The notes below the pieces were generated by a model, which ran no database searches, was not told where the DNA came from, and saw nothing but the letters and a program-made list of their open reading frames with translations. A DNA stretch of 64,000 nt from Crenothrix sp. D3 (GTDB lineage: Bacteria > Pseudomonadota > Gammaproteobacteria > Methylococcales > Methylomonadaceae): the NCBI GenBank assembly GCA_002134785.1, contig MBQZ01000084.1, positions 1-64,000 of the forward strand, given 5' to 3'. This document shows positions 5,387 through 41,197 of the stretch, piece after piece (the stretch's first letter is position 1; the number at the start of each line of letters is the position of its first letter). The translations under genes and the position numbers were made by a program.

Positions 5387-6616
5387 ATGATAAAACTTAG
5401 CACTTCAGATCTGTGTTGTGGTATGTATGTTTCTGCCTTGGACAGATCGTGGATAGGAACGCCTTTTTTGTTTCAAAGTTTCCTTATTAAAACGGAAAAA
5501 CAGATTCAGCAACTGCAAAAATATTGTCGCACTGTTGAAATTGATGAGGACAAAAGCGATCCATCAATTGCCGATAAGATTTTCTTGTACAAGTGTAAAG
5601 CTGCCAATGCCCCCGATGAAGCCATCGTAGATATAAAACAATTTGAAGCAAAGATGGCTGTTGCCCGTCAAGTCTATGAAAATACAGAAACCTCGCTACA
5701 TAACGTATTAAATGATTTTCGGCTCAATAAAAAAAACAGTCCAGTTGAACTAAAAGCCTGTGTTCATGGTGTTATTGATGGCGTGATGCACAATCCTAAT
5801 GCACTGGCATTACTTAGCAATCTAAAATCAAAACAACAAGATACCGCTCGCCATAGTCTAAATGTATGTATTCTTAGTTTACTTTTTGGTCGCCATTTGG
5901 GGCTTAATGAACAGCAATTATCTGATTTGGGTTACGCTGCATTACTGCATGACATGGGGGAAATTAAAGTGTCTCAAGCCATTCTTGACAAACACAATAG
6001 AAAGCTAACGCCCGAAGAAAAAAAAGAAATGGAAATGCACACTCAATATGGTGAAGAAATATTATTGAATACCCCTGATATTCCAAGTATCGCCATAAAA
6101 GTCGCCCGCTCACATCATGAGCGAGTGAATGGCAAAGGTTATCCTGATGGTTTAATAGGTAATGAAATTGACTCTTTCTCCAGATTAATTTCCATCGTTG
6201 ATGTTTATGAGATAGTCACTAATCATCCAGGAGCTAAAGTACAGATTTCCTGTTCTGACGCATTGAAATCTATTTACATGATGCGTGGTAGTTTCTTTGA
6301 TGCGGAACTGGTCGAGGAATTTATTAAATGCTTAGGGATTTATCCAATTGGTAGTGTAGTTGAGCTAAATAGCGGCGAAATAGCCATTGTGATTGGTACT
6401 AAACAAGAGAAAAGTTCATTACCAACTCTTATGGTTGTTAAGAATAAAAAGGGGATGTTTTGTGATCCGCAAGTTGTTAATTTAGAACAATTCAAATTTA
6501 GCATAAGTACACGTTCGTTAAAACTGAGTATTACTAAAGTCGTTGATCCTGATTCTGTGGGTATAGATTTGAGTGATTATATAATTAGAGAAGCGGGTAT
6601 GAGTATGGGACGATAA
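5387..6616 (+). CDS. HD-GYP cyclic di-GMP phosphodiesterase
   Basis: This 409-residue cytoplasmic protein has a DUF3391-type N-terminal region (residues 1 to about 120, opening with the typical ...LCCGMYVSALDRSW...). An HD-GYP domain follows (about 125-320) with the metal HD pair at 188-189 (LLHDMGEIKV) and the diagnostic HHERVNGKGYPDGL at 243-256. All family catalytic residues I can see are present, so active hydrolysis of c-di-GMP is expected. The type IV pilus ATPase genes at 8.7-10.9 kb are an obvious kind of output but are not in the same operon. A C-terminal extension of about 90 residues has no motif I recognise. Confidence 0.9.
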   Translation: MIKLSTSDLCCGMYVSALDRSWIGTPFLFQSFLIKTEKQIQQLQKYCRTVEIDEDKSDPSIADKIFLYKCKAANAPDEAIVDIKQFEAKMAVARQVYENTETSLHNVLNDFRLNKKNSPVELKACVHGVIDGVMHNPNALALLSNLKSKQQDTARHSLNVCILSLLFGRHLGLNEQQLSDLGYAALLHDMGEIKVSQAILDKHNRKLTPEEKKEMEMHTQYGEEILLNTPDIPSIAIKVARSHHERVNGKGYPDGLIGNEIDSFSRLISIVDVYEIVTNHPGAKVQISCSDALKSIYMMRGSFFDAELVEEFIKCLGIYPIGSVVELNSGEIAIVIGTKQEKSSLPTLMVVKNKKGMFCDPQVVNLEQFKFSISTRSLKLSITKVVDPDSVGIDLSDYIIREAGMSMGR

Positions 6617-6701
6617 ATCACCGTAAGAGCATACCTATCAGTTTCATAGCCAGTGTGGAGCTAAGTAGTCGCTCAAAAGTCTTTTAACAAAATAGAAAAC
6701 A

Positions 6702-6843
6702 GGCTTAACCGTTCGTCCTGAGCCTGTCGAAGGAAGCCTGTCGAAGGAAGCCTGTCGAAGGAAGCCTGTCGAAGGATGGACGGTTAAGCCCGCTCATGGT
6801 TCGACTGTTCGACAAGCTCACAGCTCACCATGAACGGCTTAAC
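6702..6843. repeat. Dispersed GTTCG/GTCGAA palindromic repeat, expanded copy
   Basis: The 314-base gap between the HD-GYP gene and purC is largely filled by this element. It has GGCTTAACCGTTCG at the left, a tandem array in the middle, GGACGGTTAAGCC, and a second hairpin ending CCATGAACGGCTTAAC. Sister copies are at 37771, 40608 and 42707. The element looks like two adjoining hairpins of a REP-type family. Confidence 0.8.
6721..6776 (+). repeat. Four exact tandem copies of a 14-bp unit
   Basis: AGCCTGTCGAAGGA is repeated four times without a mismatch inside the dispersed repeat. Other copies of the repeat in this window have the unit once or not at all, so this is a local expansion, probably by slippage. 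Confidence 0.95.
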
Positions 6844-6930
6844 AATCCTGCCAGCCAAAATGTTAAAAGATATATGGTCAGCTACTTAATGCTACGCTCC
6901 ACACGCGCTATGTTTTGAAATGGTAATGAA

Positions 6931-7824
6931 TTATGCTCGTGTTAACCGCAATTCAGCTTCGCGGTATTTTGCCGCGCAATATTCAGCAACTTCAGCAGGT
7001 AATGTAGGGGCGGGGGCTTTTTTATCCCAATCTAAGGTTTCTAAATAATCACGCACATATTGCTTATCAAAACTGGGTGGGCTAATGCCAACTTGGTATT
7101 GATCCACGGGCCAGAAACGTGACGAATCTGGCGTTAAAGCTTCATCAATTAAATAGAGTGTGCCTGCTTTATCCACACCAAATTCAAATTTAGTGTCGGC
7201 AATAATAATGCCGCGTTCTTTGGCATAACTGGCGGCTTCTTTGTAGAGCTTCAAACTGGCATCACGCACTTGCTCGGCTAAGTCTTGTCCGATTAATGCG
7301 ACGGTATGTTCAAATGAGACATTTTCATCGTGTTGATCAACAGCGGCTTTAGTTGATGGGGTGTAAATGGGTTCAGGCAGTTGCTGAGCTTGTTGTAAGC
7401 CTTCGGGTAGTTGAATGCCGCATATCGCACCTGTTTGTTGGTAATCTTTCCAGCCTGAGCCAATTAAATAACCGCGTACTATGGCTTCAACAGGCAGTGG
7501 ATTTAAGCGTTTAACGACAACCGCGCGACCTTCAATCGGTGCGCGTTCTTCGGCGTTGGGGATGACCTGTTCTAGGGGTATGTTGGTGATGTGGTTGGGC
7601 ATGACGTGCTGCATTTTTTTAAACCAGAAATTAGAAATACTGGTTAATACCTGTCCTTTGTTGGGTATGGGGTCTGGTAGAATCACGTCAAATGCGGACA
7701 ATCTGTCGGTGGCAACAATCAGCATAGTGTCATCATCAATGGCGTAAATATCACGGACTTTGCCACGCGCAAGAAGTGTTAAAGAAGGCAGTTCTGATTG
7801 ATAAAGTGCGTCTGAAATGGTCAT
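6931..7824 (-). CDS. purC: Phosphoribosylaminoimidazole-succinocarboxamide synthase (SAICAR synthetase)
   Basis: The enzyme condenses CAIR with aspartate in purine biosynthesis. The 297-residue protein is of the longer, yeast Ade1-like type. It shows [12 protein letters not shown] near residue 21, [17 protein letters not shown] near 113, DTKFEFGVD near 210 and the signature [13 protein letters not shown] near 227. The start ATG at 7824 is supported by a GAGGACTT sequence just upstream. It diverges from the djlA-like gene with 70 bases between. purB, another purine gene, is at 41 kb and not linked. Identification is secure. Confidence 0.96.
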
Positions 7825-7894
7825 AAGTCCTCGATGGGCTGCAAGATGGTTAATGTTATAATTTTAGCATTATTAACAGGGTAGGGTTGTTTGA

Positions 7895-8674
7895 ATGAGT
7901 TTGTTAAGGTCGGTGATTGGCGGTGCGTTTGGCTTTGTGGTCGGCGGGCCGTTAGGTGCTATTCTGGGTGCGTCTATTGCTCATCAATTGGGTAATAGGG
8001 AAGAGACGAAATCTATTGAGTCATCACAGGCGCAAATGGCGTTTTTTGCAGCGACTTTTTCAGTGATGGGTCATGTTGCTAAGGTAAATGGTCGGGTTTA
8101 CCCAGAAGCAATCAGTTTCGCTAAACGGACGATGAGTGAAATGCAGTTAGATACCGAGCTGCAAGACACGGCAATTAATCTTTTTCAACAAGGTAAACAA
8201 ATCAATTTTCCGCTGGATCATGTGCTGGCTCAGTTTTATCAAGAATGTCACCAGCATTCGAATTTAATCCAGCGTTTTTTAGACATTCAACTGCAAACAG
8301 CGATTGTAAATGGCACGTTAACCAGTCACGAAGACGCGGTGTTATGGCATTTGTGCCGTCAATTGAAAATCTCTCAATTTAATTATCAACGTATAAAAAT
8401 ACGGCGACTTTCACAGCAGTATTTTTACCAGCAAACAGCACAGATTTCTAATACACACACATCAAACAAAGCTGAGGCCTATAAAGTATTAGGTTTAACA
8501 CCCGCCGCTAATCAGGCGGACGTTAAACAGGCTTACCGCCGTCTTATGAGTCAACATCACCCTGATAAATTAGCCTCCAAAGGGCTATCTGAAGCAACCA
8601 TGCTGCGGGCTAAAGAAAAAACCCAGCAGATTAGCAAGGCTTACGAAACTATTCAAAAGTTGAGTGGTGCATAA
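7895..8674 (+). CDS. djlA: DjlA-like membrane-anchored J-domain co-chaperone
   Basis: This 259-residue protein (E. coli DjlA is 271) has a glycine-zipper membrane segment at the N-terminus (GGAFGFVVGGPLGAILGASI). A TerB-like helical domain spans about 45-150 (FFAATFSVMGHVAKVNGRV). A C-terminal J domain carries HPD at 222-224 and KVLGLTPAANQADVKQAYRR before it. The J domain is expected to stimulate the ATPase of DnaK. The order TM, TerB, J is diagnostic of DjlA. The start codon follows a GGGTTGTTTG leader with a weak ribosome site. Confidence 0.88.
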   Translation: MSLLRSVIGGAFGFVVGGPLGAILGASIAHQLGNREETKSIESSQAQMAFFAATFSVMGHVAKVNGRVYPEAISFAKRTMSEMQLDTELQDTAINLFQQGKQINFPLDHVLAQFYQECHQHSNLIQRFLDIQLQTAIVNGTLTSHEDAVLWHLCRQLKISQFNYQRIKIRRLSQQYFYQQTAQISNTHTSNKAEAYKVLGLTPAANQADVKQAYRRLMSQHHPDKLASKGLSEATMLRAKEKTQQISKAYETIQKLSGA

Positions 8675-37649: not shown

Positions 37650-37710
37650 TGTACAAGTCATTAGCCCCGATGAACTACGCCATAGTTTATTACAAGGCTT
37701 GCGCGAGCGG
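37627..37710 (+). pseudogene. C-terminal remnant of a WYL-domain regulator
   Basis: A short frame overlapping the ligase stop reads LIRYWLPNVQVISPDELRHS, followed by LLQGLRER. This matches the typical last 25-30 residues of WYL-domain transcription factors (WLPxVxVLxPxxLRxxL). Nothing of the HTH or WYL body is present. I read it as a deletion scar that now abuts the ligase gene. Confidence 0.5.
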
Positions 37711-37770
37711 TGTAGGGTACGCTGTGCGTATCTTTCCATGATTAACGGTACGCACAGCGTCACTGCCATT

Positions 37771-37885
37771 AAGTTAAGGATTTTTCCGTTCGCCCTGAGC
37801 TTGTCGAAGGGTGAATGGAAAAATTCCAGCCCCGAAGTTAAGACGTTTATGCTTCGACAAGCTCAGCACGAACGGCTTAACTTAA
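37771..37885. repeat. Dispersed GTTCG/GTCGAA palindromic repeat
   Basis: CCGTTCGCCCTGAGCTTGTC and its partner GACAAGCTCAGCACGAACGG frame a GAATGGAAAAATTCC centre, with AAGTTAAG and CTTAACTT further out. It is the best-formed long copy in the window. Most of the gap from 37711 to 38016 is this element and the next one. Confidence 0.85.
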
Positions 37886-37946
37886 TGTCATTGAAGCGGA
37901 GCTTGGGAACGAGATATTCTGCGGTGTTCATTTCATAAATCCCCTT

Positions 37947-38038
37947 AAGTAGCCCGTGTGGAGCGTAGCGGAACACGGGGAACAGTGACATCATCAACGA
38001 AAAGCCCCGCATTCCGTTACACTCCATGCGGGCTACTT
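37947..38038. repeat. AAGTAGCCCG/CGGGCTACTT inverted repeat
   Basis: Ten-base perfect arms at 37947-37956 and 38029-38038 enclose GTGTGGAGCGTAGCGGAACA and its imperfect complement, making a long cruciform. It overlaps the last codons of the XRE regulator gene, so the protein's final residues are repeat-encoded. Confidence 0.8.
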
Positions 38039-38430
38039 GCTAATTTTTCCTTTAGCAACACATTCATTTCTTTTAACTGATTAATTTGTTCATTCAACAA
38101 TTCAATTTCCTTCTCTTTCGCCTCAAGTTTTACGCCCATTTTTTCCAATTCTTGAACGCATTGGCTTTCAGTTAAAAGAATTCCATTTTGTGAATTGTAA
38201 TTACAGTGTTCAGCTATATAAAAAACATTCCCTTCGTTTAAACCTATCAATTTTTGTAAATCAATACCCAAGGTTTGTGCTATTTTTTCGAGCTTACCAA
38301 TTGTCACATCCGTTTCTCCACGCTCAATTTTAGTGTAGCCATTTAACGAATAACCCAACTTTTCAGCCATTTCTTCCTGAGTCCAATCTTTAAATAAACG
38401 CATAATTTTCAGTTTCTCATAGACTTGCAT
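38017..38430 (-). CDS. XRE-family transcriptional regulator with coiled-coil tail
   Basis: The 137-residue protein has an N-terminal HTH_3 domain (LKIMRLFKDWTQEEMAEKLG, YSLNGYTKIERGETDVTIGK). A C-terminal leucine-rich coiled coil (about 90-130, ELEKMGVKLEAKEKEIELL) probably dimerises. It is transcribed away from the small secreted protein gene with 153 bases between, so it is the natural candidate to control the protease module. The last seven or so residues lie in a dispersed repeat, which suggests that repeat insertion changed the C-terminus. Confidence 0.8.
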   Translation of the reverse strand: MQVYEKLKIMRLFKDWTQEEMAEKLGYSLNGYTKIERGETDVTIGKLEKIAQTLGIDLQKLIGLNEGNVFYIAEHCNYNSQNGILLTESQCVQELEKMGVKLEAKEKEIELLNEQINQLKEMNVLLKEKLASSPHGV

Positions 38431-38495
38431 TGATATTCCTTGTTAGTGGTCATAATAGCTACAGTGGGTTGGTGTTATCTAAACAGGGGATTCTT

Positions 38496-38501
38496 TATAA
38501 T
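38496..38501 (+). promoter_or_regulatory. Probable -10 box of the secreted-peptide gene
   Basis: A consensus TATAAT lies 83 bases before the ATG at 38584, in the divergent intergenic region with the XRE gene. No strong -35 is seen, as might be expected of a regulated promoter. GCATT-aa-AATGC at 38540-38552 is a small dyad downstream. Confidence 0.35.
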
Positions 38502-38583
38502 CGAAACATCTGAAAAACACCAGTCAATCAGAGAATGAGCATTAAAAATGCTTGGGTATTCTAACAATGTTAAGGAATTTACG

Positions 38584-38922
38584 ATGAAGAATTTATTGAT
38601 TAAAGTTGTTTGTGTAACGGTTTTTTTAGGCGTGTCCGTAGCATTTGCTGATGTTAAAGCGGCTGATTCACCAAATACCCCGCAATTTCAACATTTTGCA
38701 GGTGAGGAGAAAATGGAGCGTTTAACCGAACAACAGATAAAAGAGGCAAAAGGCGCGGGAAAATACACTTTTATCGCAAAATACGGGAAAAAAGCTTGGG
38801 AAGGCATTTCTGGCTATTTTACAGCAAAGGAAGTTTATGACATGAGCAAAGGCAGTGGATCAAGTGGTTCATACAGTAATCCTAACCTAACTGGTGCTGG
38901 CTCAACCAGTACAGGTCATTAA
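38584..38922 (+). CDS. Small exported protein with double-glycine-type leader motif
   Basis: The 112-residue precursor starts with a Sec signal peptide (MKNLLIKVVCVTVFLGVSVA, cleavage near AFA at 22). It then carries RLTEQQIKEAKGAG at 46-59. Counting Ala58 as -1, it has Leu -12, Thr -11, Ile -7, Ala -4, Gly -2 and Ala -1. That fits the consensus of bacteriocin leader peptides cut by C39 proteases. The remainder (59-112) is basic and aromatic, then Gly/Ser/Thr-rich. The start at 38584 is picked over 38548 because it gives a proper signal peptide. The next gene encodes an exported C39 protease. I do not recognise the family. Confidence 0.75.
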   Translation: MKNLLIKVVCVTVFLGVSVAFADVKAADSPNTPQFQHFAGEEKMERLTEQQIKEAKGAGKYTFIAKYGKKAWEGISGYFTAKEVYDMSKGSGSSGSYSNPNLTGAGSTSTGH

Positions 38923-38944
38923 GCCATAACACTACTATCCTCTT

Positions 38945-38982
38945 AAAAAACCAACCCGTATCCAATTTTGGTTGGTTTTTTT
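38945..38982 (+). terminator. Rho-independent terminator between peptide and protease genes
   Basis: AAAAAACCAACC and GGTTGGTTTTTTT form a 12-bp stem, 22 bases after the stop of the secreted-peptide gene and 33 before the protease ATG. Leaky read-through would make much more peptide than protease. Confidence 0.85.
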
Positions 38983-39015
38983 ATAGTTCACAAACTCACG
39001 TCATTAAATATTTTC

Positions 39016-40359
39016 ATGAAAGCCAATTCGCTTCCTTTCTTACTCCTCCTTGCTTTAATTTCTTTTAATGGAAATGCTGAAAATCAACAATCACACAGCA
39101 ACTCCTGTGGCTCAATGGCACTTAGTCAATTATTGACTGGTATTAGCGATAAAAGCATATCCGAACAAGATATTTTTAATGTGATTAGACCACTTTCAGG
39201 CGATGAAGACGATTATGATATTGGAGAGTTAATAGATGCGGCTGGAAAACTTGGATTCACAGCAGATAATGGTAAATTAGCGAGTGATGTTCTGCCCAAT
39301 TTAAGAGAGCCAGTGCTACTATTAATTGATATAACTACAAAGCTAAGCCATTTTGTCGTATTAAAAGGTATTAGATCAGGAAAGGATGCCAATGAAACAG
39401 CTTATTTGTTTGACCCAGCGACAGGTTATGACATTCAAGTTCCCTATAAAACGCTTATTGAGAGAAGTATTGATAGCGAACATCCTAAATTTCAATTTAT
39501 AAGAGTAGCTTATTTCCCTGAAAAACTTAAAAAATCGCTTTATCTCCCTGAATCAGAAAGCGATATACAGGATAAATACTATACCGAAGCAGAAGCGAAT
39601 TCTCTTGCAATGGGGAACTCATCAAAAAAAGGTCAATTAACCGTTGGCTATGGCTTTGTGGCTTCGCTTGGAAATAACAAAATAAACGGTCTTACTCGAA
39701 ATTTAAACAACTTTAACCATAAAATACACGCCGAATATGGGCTTGATAAAAATAGCGAAATAGGTGGAAGTATTGAGTACGTTGATAATACTGAAATTAT
39801 TAGTTTCGGCAACGAATATAAAGAAAATTTTAATTACACTAATAGACTGTATGAAGCCTACCTTTCCCAAAATTTTAAATTAGATAAAATCGATGATACG
39901 GGCAAAACAAATCTTAATGTCTCAATCGCAGGTTCGTATGCTGAAAAGAACAATATATTTGGCGCATATCTTTCTGTTACAGGCATTAAAAATACAGAGT
40001 ATGCCCAATTTAGTTTAGGCGGTACAATCGGTAGAGAATTTACTTACGACAGATTAACCCGTTCATTATTACCAGAATATCTTTCTTATTCTGGATTCAT
40101 TGGTGCATCGAAACAATTAACTAACGATTATTTTCCTGTCCTAAATGATTTTGAGGGGGCAGTAAATTTCAAGGTATCGCAAGGTCAAAATGAAAATAAA
40201 AACACAGTTGGTACTTTTCAGCGGACTTATTCAACATCTACGAGCTTAAAATACGTTTTAACCAGAACAATCCAAATAGAACCATCATTTACTTATTCAT
40301 TTGGTGCAACAGAAACATTTTCATTTGGAATGGATATATCTTATGTCGGCGGTTGGTAA
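39016..40359 (+). CDS. Exported C39-family cysteine protease fused to an outer-membrane beta-barrel
   Basis: The 447-residue protein has a signal peptide (cleavage after GNA, residue 21). A C39-like protease domain spans about 22-170: Cys31 in SNSCGSMALSQLL, His112 in LSHFVVLKGI and Asp133 in LFDPATG form the expected triad. From about 205 to the end it shows alternating hydrophobic/aromatic strands (QLTVGYGFVASLG, IHAEYGL, EIGGSIEYV, ...TFSFGMDISYVGGW) and a terminal Trp, as in outer-membrane barrels. The start at 39016 is chosen for the signal peptide; a longer frame from 38968 lies in the terminator. C39 domains usually mature double-glycine peptides inside ABC exporters. An exported, barrel-linked version is unusual. 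The neighbouring small protein is a plausible substrate. Confidence 0.78.
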   Translation: MKANSLPFLLLLALISFNGNAENQQSHSNSCGSMALSQLLTGISDKSISEQDIFNVIRPLSGDEDDYDIGELIDAAGKLGFTADNGKLASDVLPNLREPVLLLIDITTKLSHFVVLKGIRSGKDANETAYLFDPATGYDIQVPYKTLIERSIDSEHPKFQFIRVAYFPEKLKKSLYLPESESDIQDKYYTEAEANSLAMGNSSKKGQLTVGYGFVASLGNNKINGLTRNLNNFNHKIHAEYGLDKNSEIGGSIEYVDNTEIISFGNEYKENFNYTNRLYEAYLSQNFKLDKIDDTGKTNLNVSIAGSYAEKNNIFGAYLSVTGIKNTEYAQFSLGGTIGREFTYDRLTRSLLPEYLSYSGFIGASKQLTNDYFPVLNDFEGAVNFKVSQGQNENKNTVGTFQRTYSTSTSLKYVLTRTIQIEPSFTYSFGATETFSFGMDISYVGGW

Positions 40360-40408
40360 GCTATGTAGCCAGCCGCTGTGCGTACCGTTAAAATTGTTGA
40401 TTATTAAT

Positions 40409-40455
40409 CGTTCCAACGCTCTGCGTTGGAATGCCTCGGTTGACGCTCCAGCGTC
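40409..40455. repeat. Two adjacent short hairpins
   Basis: TTCCAACGC-tct-GCGTTGGAA (40411-40431) and GACGCT-cc-AGCGTC (40442-40455) are both perfect. They open the 374-base non-coding gap after the protease gene, which holds nothing else but repeats. Confidence 0.8.
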
Positions 40456-40607
40456 TTCATTGTCAAATAGCATCGTACCGCGTACGTTGGGTTAAATTAT
40501 GTAGGTTGTGGGTGAGCTTGCGAACCCCAACAAAAACAAACGACTATGTATTACCGAGCTTTGTCGGAAACACTCACTCTACGCTACCGTTTGGGTCATT
40601 GCCCACA

Positions 40608-40659
40608 GTTAAGAATTTTTCCGTTCGCCCTTCGACAAGCTCAGGGCGAACGGCTTAAC
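40608..40659. repeat. Dispersed GTTCG/GTCGAA palindromic repeat, short copy
   Basis: CCGTTCGCCC and GGGCGAACGG flank TTCGACAAGCTCA, with AGTTAAG and CTTAACT outside. This is the minimal form of the family. Confidence 0.85.
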
Positions 40660-40672
40660 TTAATGGCAGCAC

Positions 40673-40706
40673 GATAGGATGGGCTAAGGTACGAAGCCCA
40701 TCAATC
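40673..40706. repeat. GATGGGCT/AGCCCATC hairpin repeat
   Basis: GATAGGATGGGCT-aaggtacga-AGCCCATC forms a hairpin just upstream of the antitoxin gene. A related, partly decayed copy is at 60740. Confidence 0.7.
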
Positions 40707-40733
40707 GCGACTAATTAATCAAGGGACAACAAA

Positions 40734-41021
40734 ATGAAAACTGATAATGAAATTTACACCGCCGAAGAATTGGAAATCATCACGCAGATAGAAAATGATA
40801 ACTATATGCCGTTGCCACAAAATGAATTTGAACAAGAAAAAAAGCGTTTTCAACTCATGGCAATCAATACTCTGAAAAGAAAGTCTATACCGATTGACAT
40901 AATCGAGCAGGATATAGCCAAAATAGAAGCAATGGCTTTAAATGAAGGAATGCCTTATCAATTATTTATTGCCTCAATTTTGCATAAAATCGCTAATGGA
41001 GAATTAAAATACAGTGCATAA
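40734..41021 (+). CDS. CopG-type antitoxin, apparently orphan
   Basis: The 95-residue protein matches the CopG_antitoxin pattern. It has an acidic N-terminal part (YTAEELEIITQIENDNY), a linker with EKKRFQLMAINTLKRKSIPI, and a ribbon-helix-helix-like end (IEQDIAKIEAMALNEGMPYQLFIASILHKIANG). Such proteins neutralise small toxins and repress their own operon. No toxin gene is evident: upstream there are only repeats, and the short frame downstream (GTG at 41014) has no toxin motif. The ATG follows AAGGGACAACAAA. Confidence 0.75.
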   Translation: MKTDNEIYTAEELEIITQIENDNYMPLPQNEFEQEKKRFQLMAINTLKRKSIPIDIIEQDIAKIEAMALNEGMPYQLFIASILHKIANGELKYSA

Positions 41022-41160
41022 CGCGGATAACGAAGCGGTTAAAAAAATTCACAAAGAACACGCTGATTGGCAGATTATCGTGTTGCAAACCACCCTGCAC
41101 GCAGGCTATAAAAGCCATATACATAGGACTTTCGCTGATTCCGCATTTTCAGTGAGTCTG

Positions 41161-41188
41161 CGGAGTACAAACCTAGGTTTATACTCCG
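41161..41188. repeat. CCTAGG-centred palindrome beside purB
   Basis: The arms CGGAGTACAAACCT / AGGTTTATACTCCG form a 28-base palindrome with one mismatched pair, 9 bases past the purB stop. It belongs to the family also seen at 46279 and, in altered form, at 35550. Confidence 0.8.
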
Positions 41189-41197
41189 TTGTTATCG

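Follow-up and report, generated by a model that had tools for sequence, protein, structure and literature searches.

What is a C39-type protease doing when it carries its own Sec signal, ends in what looks like an outer-membrane barrel, and is encoded next to a small protein that appears to be exported by Sec as well? The question is raised by three adjacent genes in the DNA analysed here, a stretch of 64,000 nucleotides from Crenothrix sp. D3 (GenBank assembly GCA_002134785.1, contig MBQZ01000084.1, positions 1 to 64,000; "the window"). An earlier reading, made from the sequence alone, had proposed that a regulator, a small secreted protein, and a protease-barrel form one module, in which a C39 protease has been relocated to the periplasm. 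The answer given here, which we hold to be probable, is that the module represents a minimal cassette for peptide secretion, which arrived by horizontal insertion and is related to Fap.

All three open reading frames of the proposed module are present. A divergent XRE-family regulator of 137 amino acids, with a helix-turn-helix (Pfam HTH_3, E 2.4e-13) and a coiled coil, lies on the reverse strand at 38017-38430. A control region containing a AGCATTAAAAATGCT palindrome (38431-38583) separates it from the forward-strand gene for a 112-amino acid precursor (38584-38922), the candidate substrate. The forward-strand gene for the 447-amino acid protein follows at 39016-40359. Between the last two, on the forward strand at 38945-38981, stands a hairpin of the Rho-independent type with a 12-bp stem and a U-tract (z -3.5); this is the terminator that the sequence-only reading had expected there. 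A simple terminator scanner did not detect it, on account of the long loop.

By sequence, the 447-amino acid protein belongs to peptidase family C39, and it is predicted to cut at a double-glycine-type site. The Pfam model Peptidase_C39 (PF03412) matches residues 24-137 with E 2.8e-6, scoring 27.6 bits against a cut-off of 22; a paralogue described below scores 46.8 bits. The triad proposed earlier (Cys31, His112, Asp133) holds up in a comparison of 16 C39 proteins (4 fusions and 12 stand-alone), where His112 and Asp133 never vary and conservation is at least 90% for Cys31 and Gln25. Pfam, conservation, and a structural model together place the domain, with these four residues, at 39085-39510 on the forward strand. 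Genome-wide, two C39 domains exceed the Pfam cut-off, and both are in barrel fusions. This search thus revealed no ABC exporter of the C39 type in the whole genome; the earlier reading had seen none nearby. That the fusion might cut itself at an internal motif was also considered and dropped; no strong site was found, the best reaching 6.0 bits.

Which C39 proteins does it resemble? Its weak NCBIfam matches are to members found outside ABC exporters. These are FapD (equivalog NF058616; 17.4 bits, E 0.0021, below the cut-off of 330) and FilB (15.7 bits, E 0.0071, far below the cut-off of 475). On these scores, the window protein is a distant relative of FapD, not FapD itself. Periplasmic relocation of a C39 protease is, of course, already known: FapD is periplasmic, and its Cys38 is needed for the secretion of FapC (PMC5557850), while NCBIfam has a C39 family for FilB too. 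The idea of a relocated system is supported as to its module, its recurrence, and its barrel, and the relocation itself has this precedent.

The C-terminal half had been called barrel-like, ending in Trp, and structure modelling had been suggested as a way to examine this. AlphaFold2, given a 16-sequence alignment, predicts a C39 fold, linker helices at residues 181-200, and exactly 12 long strands at residues 208-445, and the chain terminates in Trp447. The model is of moderate confidence (mean pLDDT 74.9, pTM 0.64). With the same sequences and the paralogue as query, 12 strands are again predicted (pLDDT 79.6, pTM 0.56). The half in question is therefore modelled as an outer-membrane barrel (39637-40350, forward strand) and not as a soluble fold. 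The helical linker between protease and barrel (39556-39615, forward strand), modelled with lower confidence (pLDDT ~60-70), is in a position where it might act as a plug.

Of the 350,542 PDB chains searched with Foldseek, crystal structures of FapF head the matches to the model, 5o67 being the best (E 1.7e-9). A profile-profile comparison (hhalign) with an alignment of the FapF family, made from the separate barrels of relatives, gives a probability of 85 and E 6e-6 over 63 columns. Those separate barrels, which stand beside stand-alone C39 proteins, are themselves FapF family members (5o65 with E 7.1e-63, and a match to NF058560). The fusion protein has no match to the FapF equivalog NF058560 (cut-off 700 bits), and the barrel profile found nothing among PDB sequences; there, the fold search alone gave matches. 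Thus, the fusion barrel appears FapF-like by fold and by profile-profile resemblance only. From the Foldseek and profile results together, the two domains are related to FapD plus FapF, although the protein stays far below both equivalog cut-offs.

A barrel behind an N-terminal enzyme invites, of course, another explanation, which is the main rival here. In autotransporter-like display, the barrel would carry the C39 domain to the cell surface, where it would act either on the peptide, once this had reached the outside along some other path, or on a foreign target. The order of parts (N-terminal domain, helical linker, C-terminal barrel of 12 strands, Trp end) is that of the type Va autotransporters, and NalP, EstA, EspP, and Hbp are among the Foldseek matches. 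All of these, however, rank below FapF, the distant sequence resemblance points to barrels of the FapF family, and no autotransporter Pfam family matches the 447-amino acid protein up to E 1. Further, relatives have their C39 and FapF-like barrel as separate neighbouring proteins, an arrangement that does not need display, and the candidate substrate is encoded next door and would enter the periplasm by Sec. We regard display as unlikely, and return to the reading of the module as a peptide-secretion cassette.

That reading needs the small protein and the protease to belong together. Here, the way proposed to find out was to look for genomes where homologues of both are neighbours. Crenothrix sp. 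D3 itself holds a second module (L001/L059). Its XRE gene is again divergent, its two small Sec proteins contain VSPVELNAVSGDGG and VSPTELNQVSGEG, and its C39-barrel protein, of 458 amino acids, is 37% identical to that of the window. The XRE proteins of the two modules are 38% identical over 127 amino acids, coiled coil included; an operator common to their two control regions was sought and not found. A barrel search across the order (301 genomes) and the family (237 genomes) added two further fusions, each in another genus of the family. At one of these (L061), an 89-amino acid open reading frame with a Sec-like start and VSATDLNLVSGNG lies directly upstream of the C39-barrel gene. At the other (L060), the upstream side is cut by the contig end.

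Only four fusion loci are thus known: the window's own, one paralogous, and two homologous. Small Sec proteins stand upstream in all three of those with visible upstream sequence, and chance pairing was rejected on these three. In each, a hairpin with a U-tract separates the peptide and protease genes (z -3.5, -3.5, and -3.9), at the same position and with a different sequence. Among the four loci, the XRE gene is seen at the two in this genome only. In a tree, the four fusion C39 domains form one group (support 100/99). Its nearest row outside is an unfused C39 protein of Pseudomonas baltica, whose neighbours are a small, apparently exported protein carrying TLDDGQMALIKGTAR and a separate 431-amino acid protein. 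Across the class, a sample of 369 genomes gave, besides Crenothrix sp. D3, stand-alone or ABC-sized C39 matches only, and a search of 72,556 plasmids returned no similar protein.

By inspection, toxin-antitoxin pairs, BrnT/BrnA-like and Phd/VapC-like, adjoin two of the other fusion loci (L059:4053-4537 and L060:1252-1920), as in mobile islands. The L061 locus (genome G227) is flanked by two-partner-secretion-like genes (L061:498-2171 and 6252-8046), which resemble a POTRA-type transporter and haemagglutinin-like repeats.

The neighbours of the window module bear on its history. The O-antigen-ligase gene lies next to purB in three sister species. In the window, ~3.5 kb with the module separates them (37650-41197). 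Because the sister species lack this segment, it is an insertion; the GC content of the module is ~35-37%, against ~42% around it. The segment also holds a 95-amino acid open reading frame (40734-41021) that matches no Pfam family above cut-off and has a sub-threshold CopG-antitoxin match only; it is possibly an immunity or antitoxin gene. Within the segment, similar inverted repeats of the CTTCGACAAGCTCAG type flank the module (37785-37885 and 40620-40665), and may mark how it moved. The host encodes a protein of the particulate methane monooxygenase / ammonia monooxygenase subunit A family (E 1.6e-129), and is therefore taken to be a methanotroph.

The small protein is harder to judge. It matches no Pfam or NCBIfam family above cut-off, and was aligned to both small Sec proteins of the second module. 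Its first ~22 residues (38584-38649, forward strand) are predicted by inspection to be a Sec signal peptide, with a basic N-terminus, a hydrophobic core, and an AFA-type site. Behind this, the sequence-only reading had seen the positions recognised by C39 leader proteases, a double-glycine-like second leader with Ala58 at -1. Residues L47-A58 (LTEQQIKEAKGA; 38722-38757, forward strand; predicted cut after Ala58) are indeed placed as stated. By itself, however, the motif does not stand above chance. With a textbook class II leader matrix, the site ranks 21 of 184 window open reading frames (shuffle p 0.10). With a matrix learned from other C39 neighbours, the best site of the protein is this one, at a score of -0.95 and shuffle p 0.17.

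Two lines of evidence were let go. The textbook matrix did not single the window peptide out, and evidence from the motif alone was dropped; a BLOSUM match of the peptide to the VSPxELNxVSGxG block of its paralogues ranked low. What stands above chance is the recurrence of the gene pair, together with the family-wide motif, not the window motif alone. The leader assignment in the window peptide draws on synteny together with a weaker resemblance (Q-8, I-7, A-4, K-3, G-2, A-1). Equivalent candidate sites in the other fusion loci read VSPTELNQVSGEG, VSPVELNAVSGDG, and VSATDLNLVSGNG, and a leader-like block is common to three of the four fusion-locus peptides.

The family-wide motif comes from small Sec proteins beside stand-alone and fused C39 proteins, with signal peptides called by a simple heuristic and the window peptide excluded. 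In 27 of these 38 neighbours, an unsupervised Gibbs search picked up a second leader of the double-glycine type, with a total score of 533-565 bits as against 313-367 bits in 12 shuffled sets. The learned motif has, roughly, [VL] at -12, S at -11, D at -10, E at -8, [LM] at -7, R/S/E at -3, [GA] at -2, and G, R, K, and others at -1. By its sequence this is the double-glycine leader register, following a Sec signal, and it is the register that had been assigned to the window peptide. The strict rule of GG or GA at the cut site fails, since the -1 residue varies: it is A, E, D, or N in fusion loci and G, R, or K elsewhere. The leader motif was also seen in the periplasmic part of two FapF-like barrels, as ATQAELADVRARG (L022:5282-6607, residue 92) and PTDRELGHLRGKG (L069:2301-3644, residue 83), as if the pore were a further substrate of the protease.

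The motif then leads back to Fap. In FapE-family proteins outside Pseudomonas it is found near the N-terminus in 12 of 12, each with shuffle p <=0.0033; one of these 12 loci was in the training set. In Pseudomonas, all of 20 FapE proteins have it immediately behind the signal peptide (residues 28-37, 17.7-23.0 bits; for example, MKTPFWLIAACLAASLPTQAQSFKPIELKDQELANLRGRYVM). All 20 are above the curated cut-off, and they are close relatives, so that they do not count as 20 independent cases. In the same fap loci, the remaining open reading frames, among them those of FapD and FapF, reach no more than 10.2 bits, and most stay at <4. A second leader of the form xDxELxxLRGR|Y is seen in FapE at loci L089-L108 (Pseudomonas fap) and L067-L078. 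The substrate of FapD was stated to be undetermined in 2018 (PMC6173800). The motif suggests FapE as a candidate, cut at (L/I/V/M)xDxE(L/M)xxLRGR|(Y/F) right after the signal peptide. The predicted site fits the observation that FapE is the sole Fap protein without N-terminal peptides in mass spectra (PMC5557850).

Should the small proteins, then, be seen as part of a fibre? They could be subunits of a surface fibre, or FapE-like initiators, in the assembly of a Fap-like surface structure or adhesin. The protease and pore families are those of Fap, the FapE leader motif matches, and many of the stand-alone relatives are found beside surface proteins rich in repeats. Against this, the FapE family, searched genome-wide, has no match in this genome. 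The predicted mature products of the four fusion-locus proteins are, further, short (21-54 amino acids), cationic (+3 to +6), and dissimilar, without the long repeats seen in relatives. We consider a fibre quite unlikely. A porin-protease for nutrient peptides or envelope upkeep, for which the small gene would be an incidental neighbour and not a substrate, would suit the weak window motif and the terminator between the genes, and is highly improbable given the upstream Sec proteins at all three complete loci, the block in three of the four peptides, and the family-wide motif beside C39 proteins.

How would a peptide-secretion cassette of this kind operate? We infer that the small protein would cross the inner membrane by Sec and retain its second, double-glycine-type leader. 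The C39-barrel protein would also be exported by Sec, its 12-stranded FapF-like barrel entering the outer membrane and its C39 domain being tethered at the periplasmic mouth. There, the protease would recognise [L/V]xxx[E/Q][L/I]xxxxGx and cut after the residue that follows the -2 glycine (in the window, Ala58). The short cationic C-terminal peptide would leave through the barrel or by opening it. The terminator after the peptide gene would keep the peptide more abundant than the pore, and the divergent promoter would be under the control of the XRE protein.

The function of the peptide is the least certain step; antibacterial or signal is a guess. In the window, the predicted mature peptide has 54 amino acids and a net charge of +3 (38758-38919, forward strand), and its segment FIAKYGKKAWEGIS is amphipathic (hydrophobic moment 0.56, shuffle p 0.007); the amphipathicity of the other three fusion-locus peptides is not significant. 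Charge, window amphipathicity, divergence of the mature parts, and a CHAP-domain protein of a relative would support guessing an antibacterial role. That protein, in a relative of the same genus (L004:2105-2623, genome G004), is of the peptidoglycan amidase type and has a Sec signal and LNDHELASVEAKG. It is the apparent substrate there, and it adjoins a stand-alone C39 protein and a FapF-like barrel that starts with an excisionase-type helix-turn-helix. A double-glycine leader, as expected of class II bacteriocins and microcins, is clear in family members and weak in the window peptide. No obvious candidate for an immunity gene was identified, which weakens the bacteriocin reading.

Most subscription journals and preprints lay outside the literature searched, where only Fap papers were found on a C39-barrel fusion or on a precursor with both Sec and double-glycine leaders; a FapD-FapF link is already noted in one (PMC6173800). 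Within it, there appears to be no description of the single-chain protease-pore, of its small-peptide partners, or of the second leader across the family. A larger claim is possible, and we advance it tentatively. This would be an undescribed Gram-negative export route for bacteriocin-like or signal peptides, in which Sec export is followed by a double-glycine leader, and a single protease-pore protein matures and releases the peptide at the outer membrane with no ABC exporter; Fap would be one branch of it. That C39 and pore are fused in nature is an argument for FapD and FapF working as a single machine at the outer membrane. The common second leader gives an exact, testable candidate FapD site in Pseudomonas FapE, and predicts small exported peptides in methane-oxidising bacteria.

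Four known systems can be set beside the module. The type Va autotransporters (NalP, EstA) share with the fusion a single chain of N-terminal domain, linker, and 12-strand barrel; unlike them, the fusion is closer to FapF in the fold search, lacks the autotransporter Pfam match, and has a dedicated neighbouring gene for a candidate substrate. The peptidase-containing ABC transporters (PCATs), where C39 is fused to an ABC transporter and the peptides have double-glycine leaders, share the triad and the leader register (-12, -8, -7, -4, -2). Unlike them, the fusion has a Sec signal and no ABC or membrane domain, is predicted to act outside the cytoplasm, and would tolerate A, E, D, N, R, or K at -1. 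The Fil system of Acinetobacter (NCBIfam FilA-FilC) also has its C39 member, FilB, outside an ABC exporter, and the FilC model matches the FapF-like barrels of relatives; unlike the module, Fil has separate genes and pilus-type cargo. Fap itself, in Pseudomonas, combines a C39 protease (FapD), a trimeric barrel (FapF), and FapE, FapC, and FapB as cargo. It shares with the module a Sec-exported C39, which in Fap acts in the periplasm (PMC5557850), and a 12-stranded barrel, that of FapF being the best structural match of the fusion, and with the family the same kind of second leader, at the FapE N-terminus. Unlike Fap, the module has protease and pore in one chain without the long FapF coiled coil, its cargo would be small and cationic rather than made of amyloid repeats, its locus has no fapABCDEF gene set with amyloid repeat subunits and its genome no FapE homologue, and the whole is a cassette of three to four genes with an XRE regulator. 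We read the module as a single-chain FapD-FapF variant with small cationic cargo.
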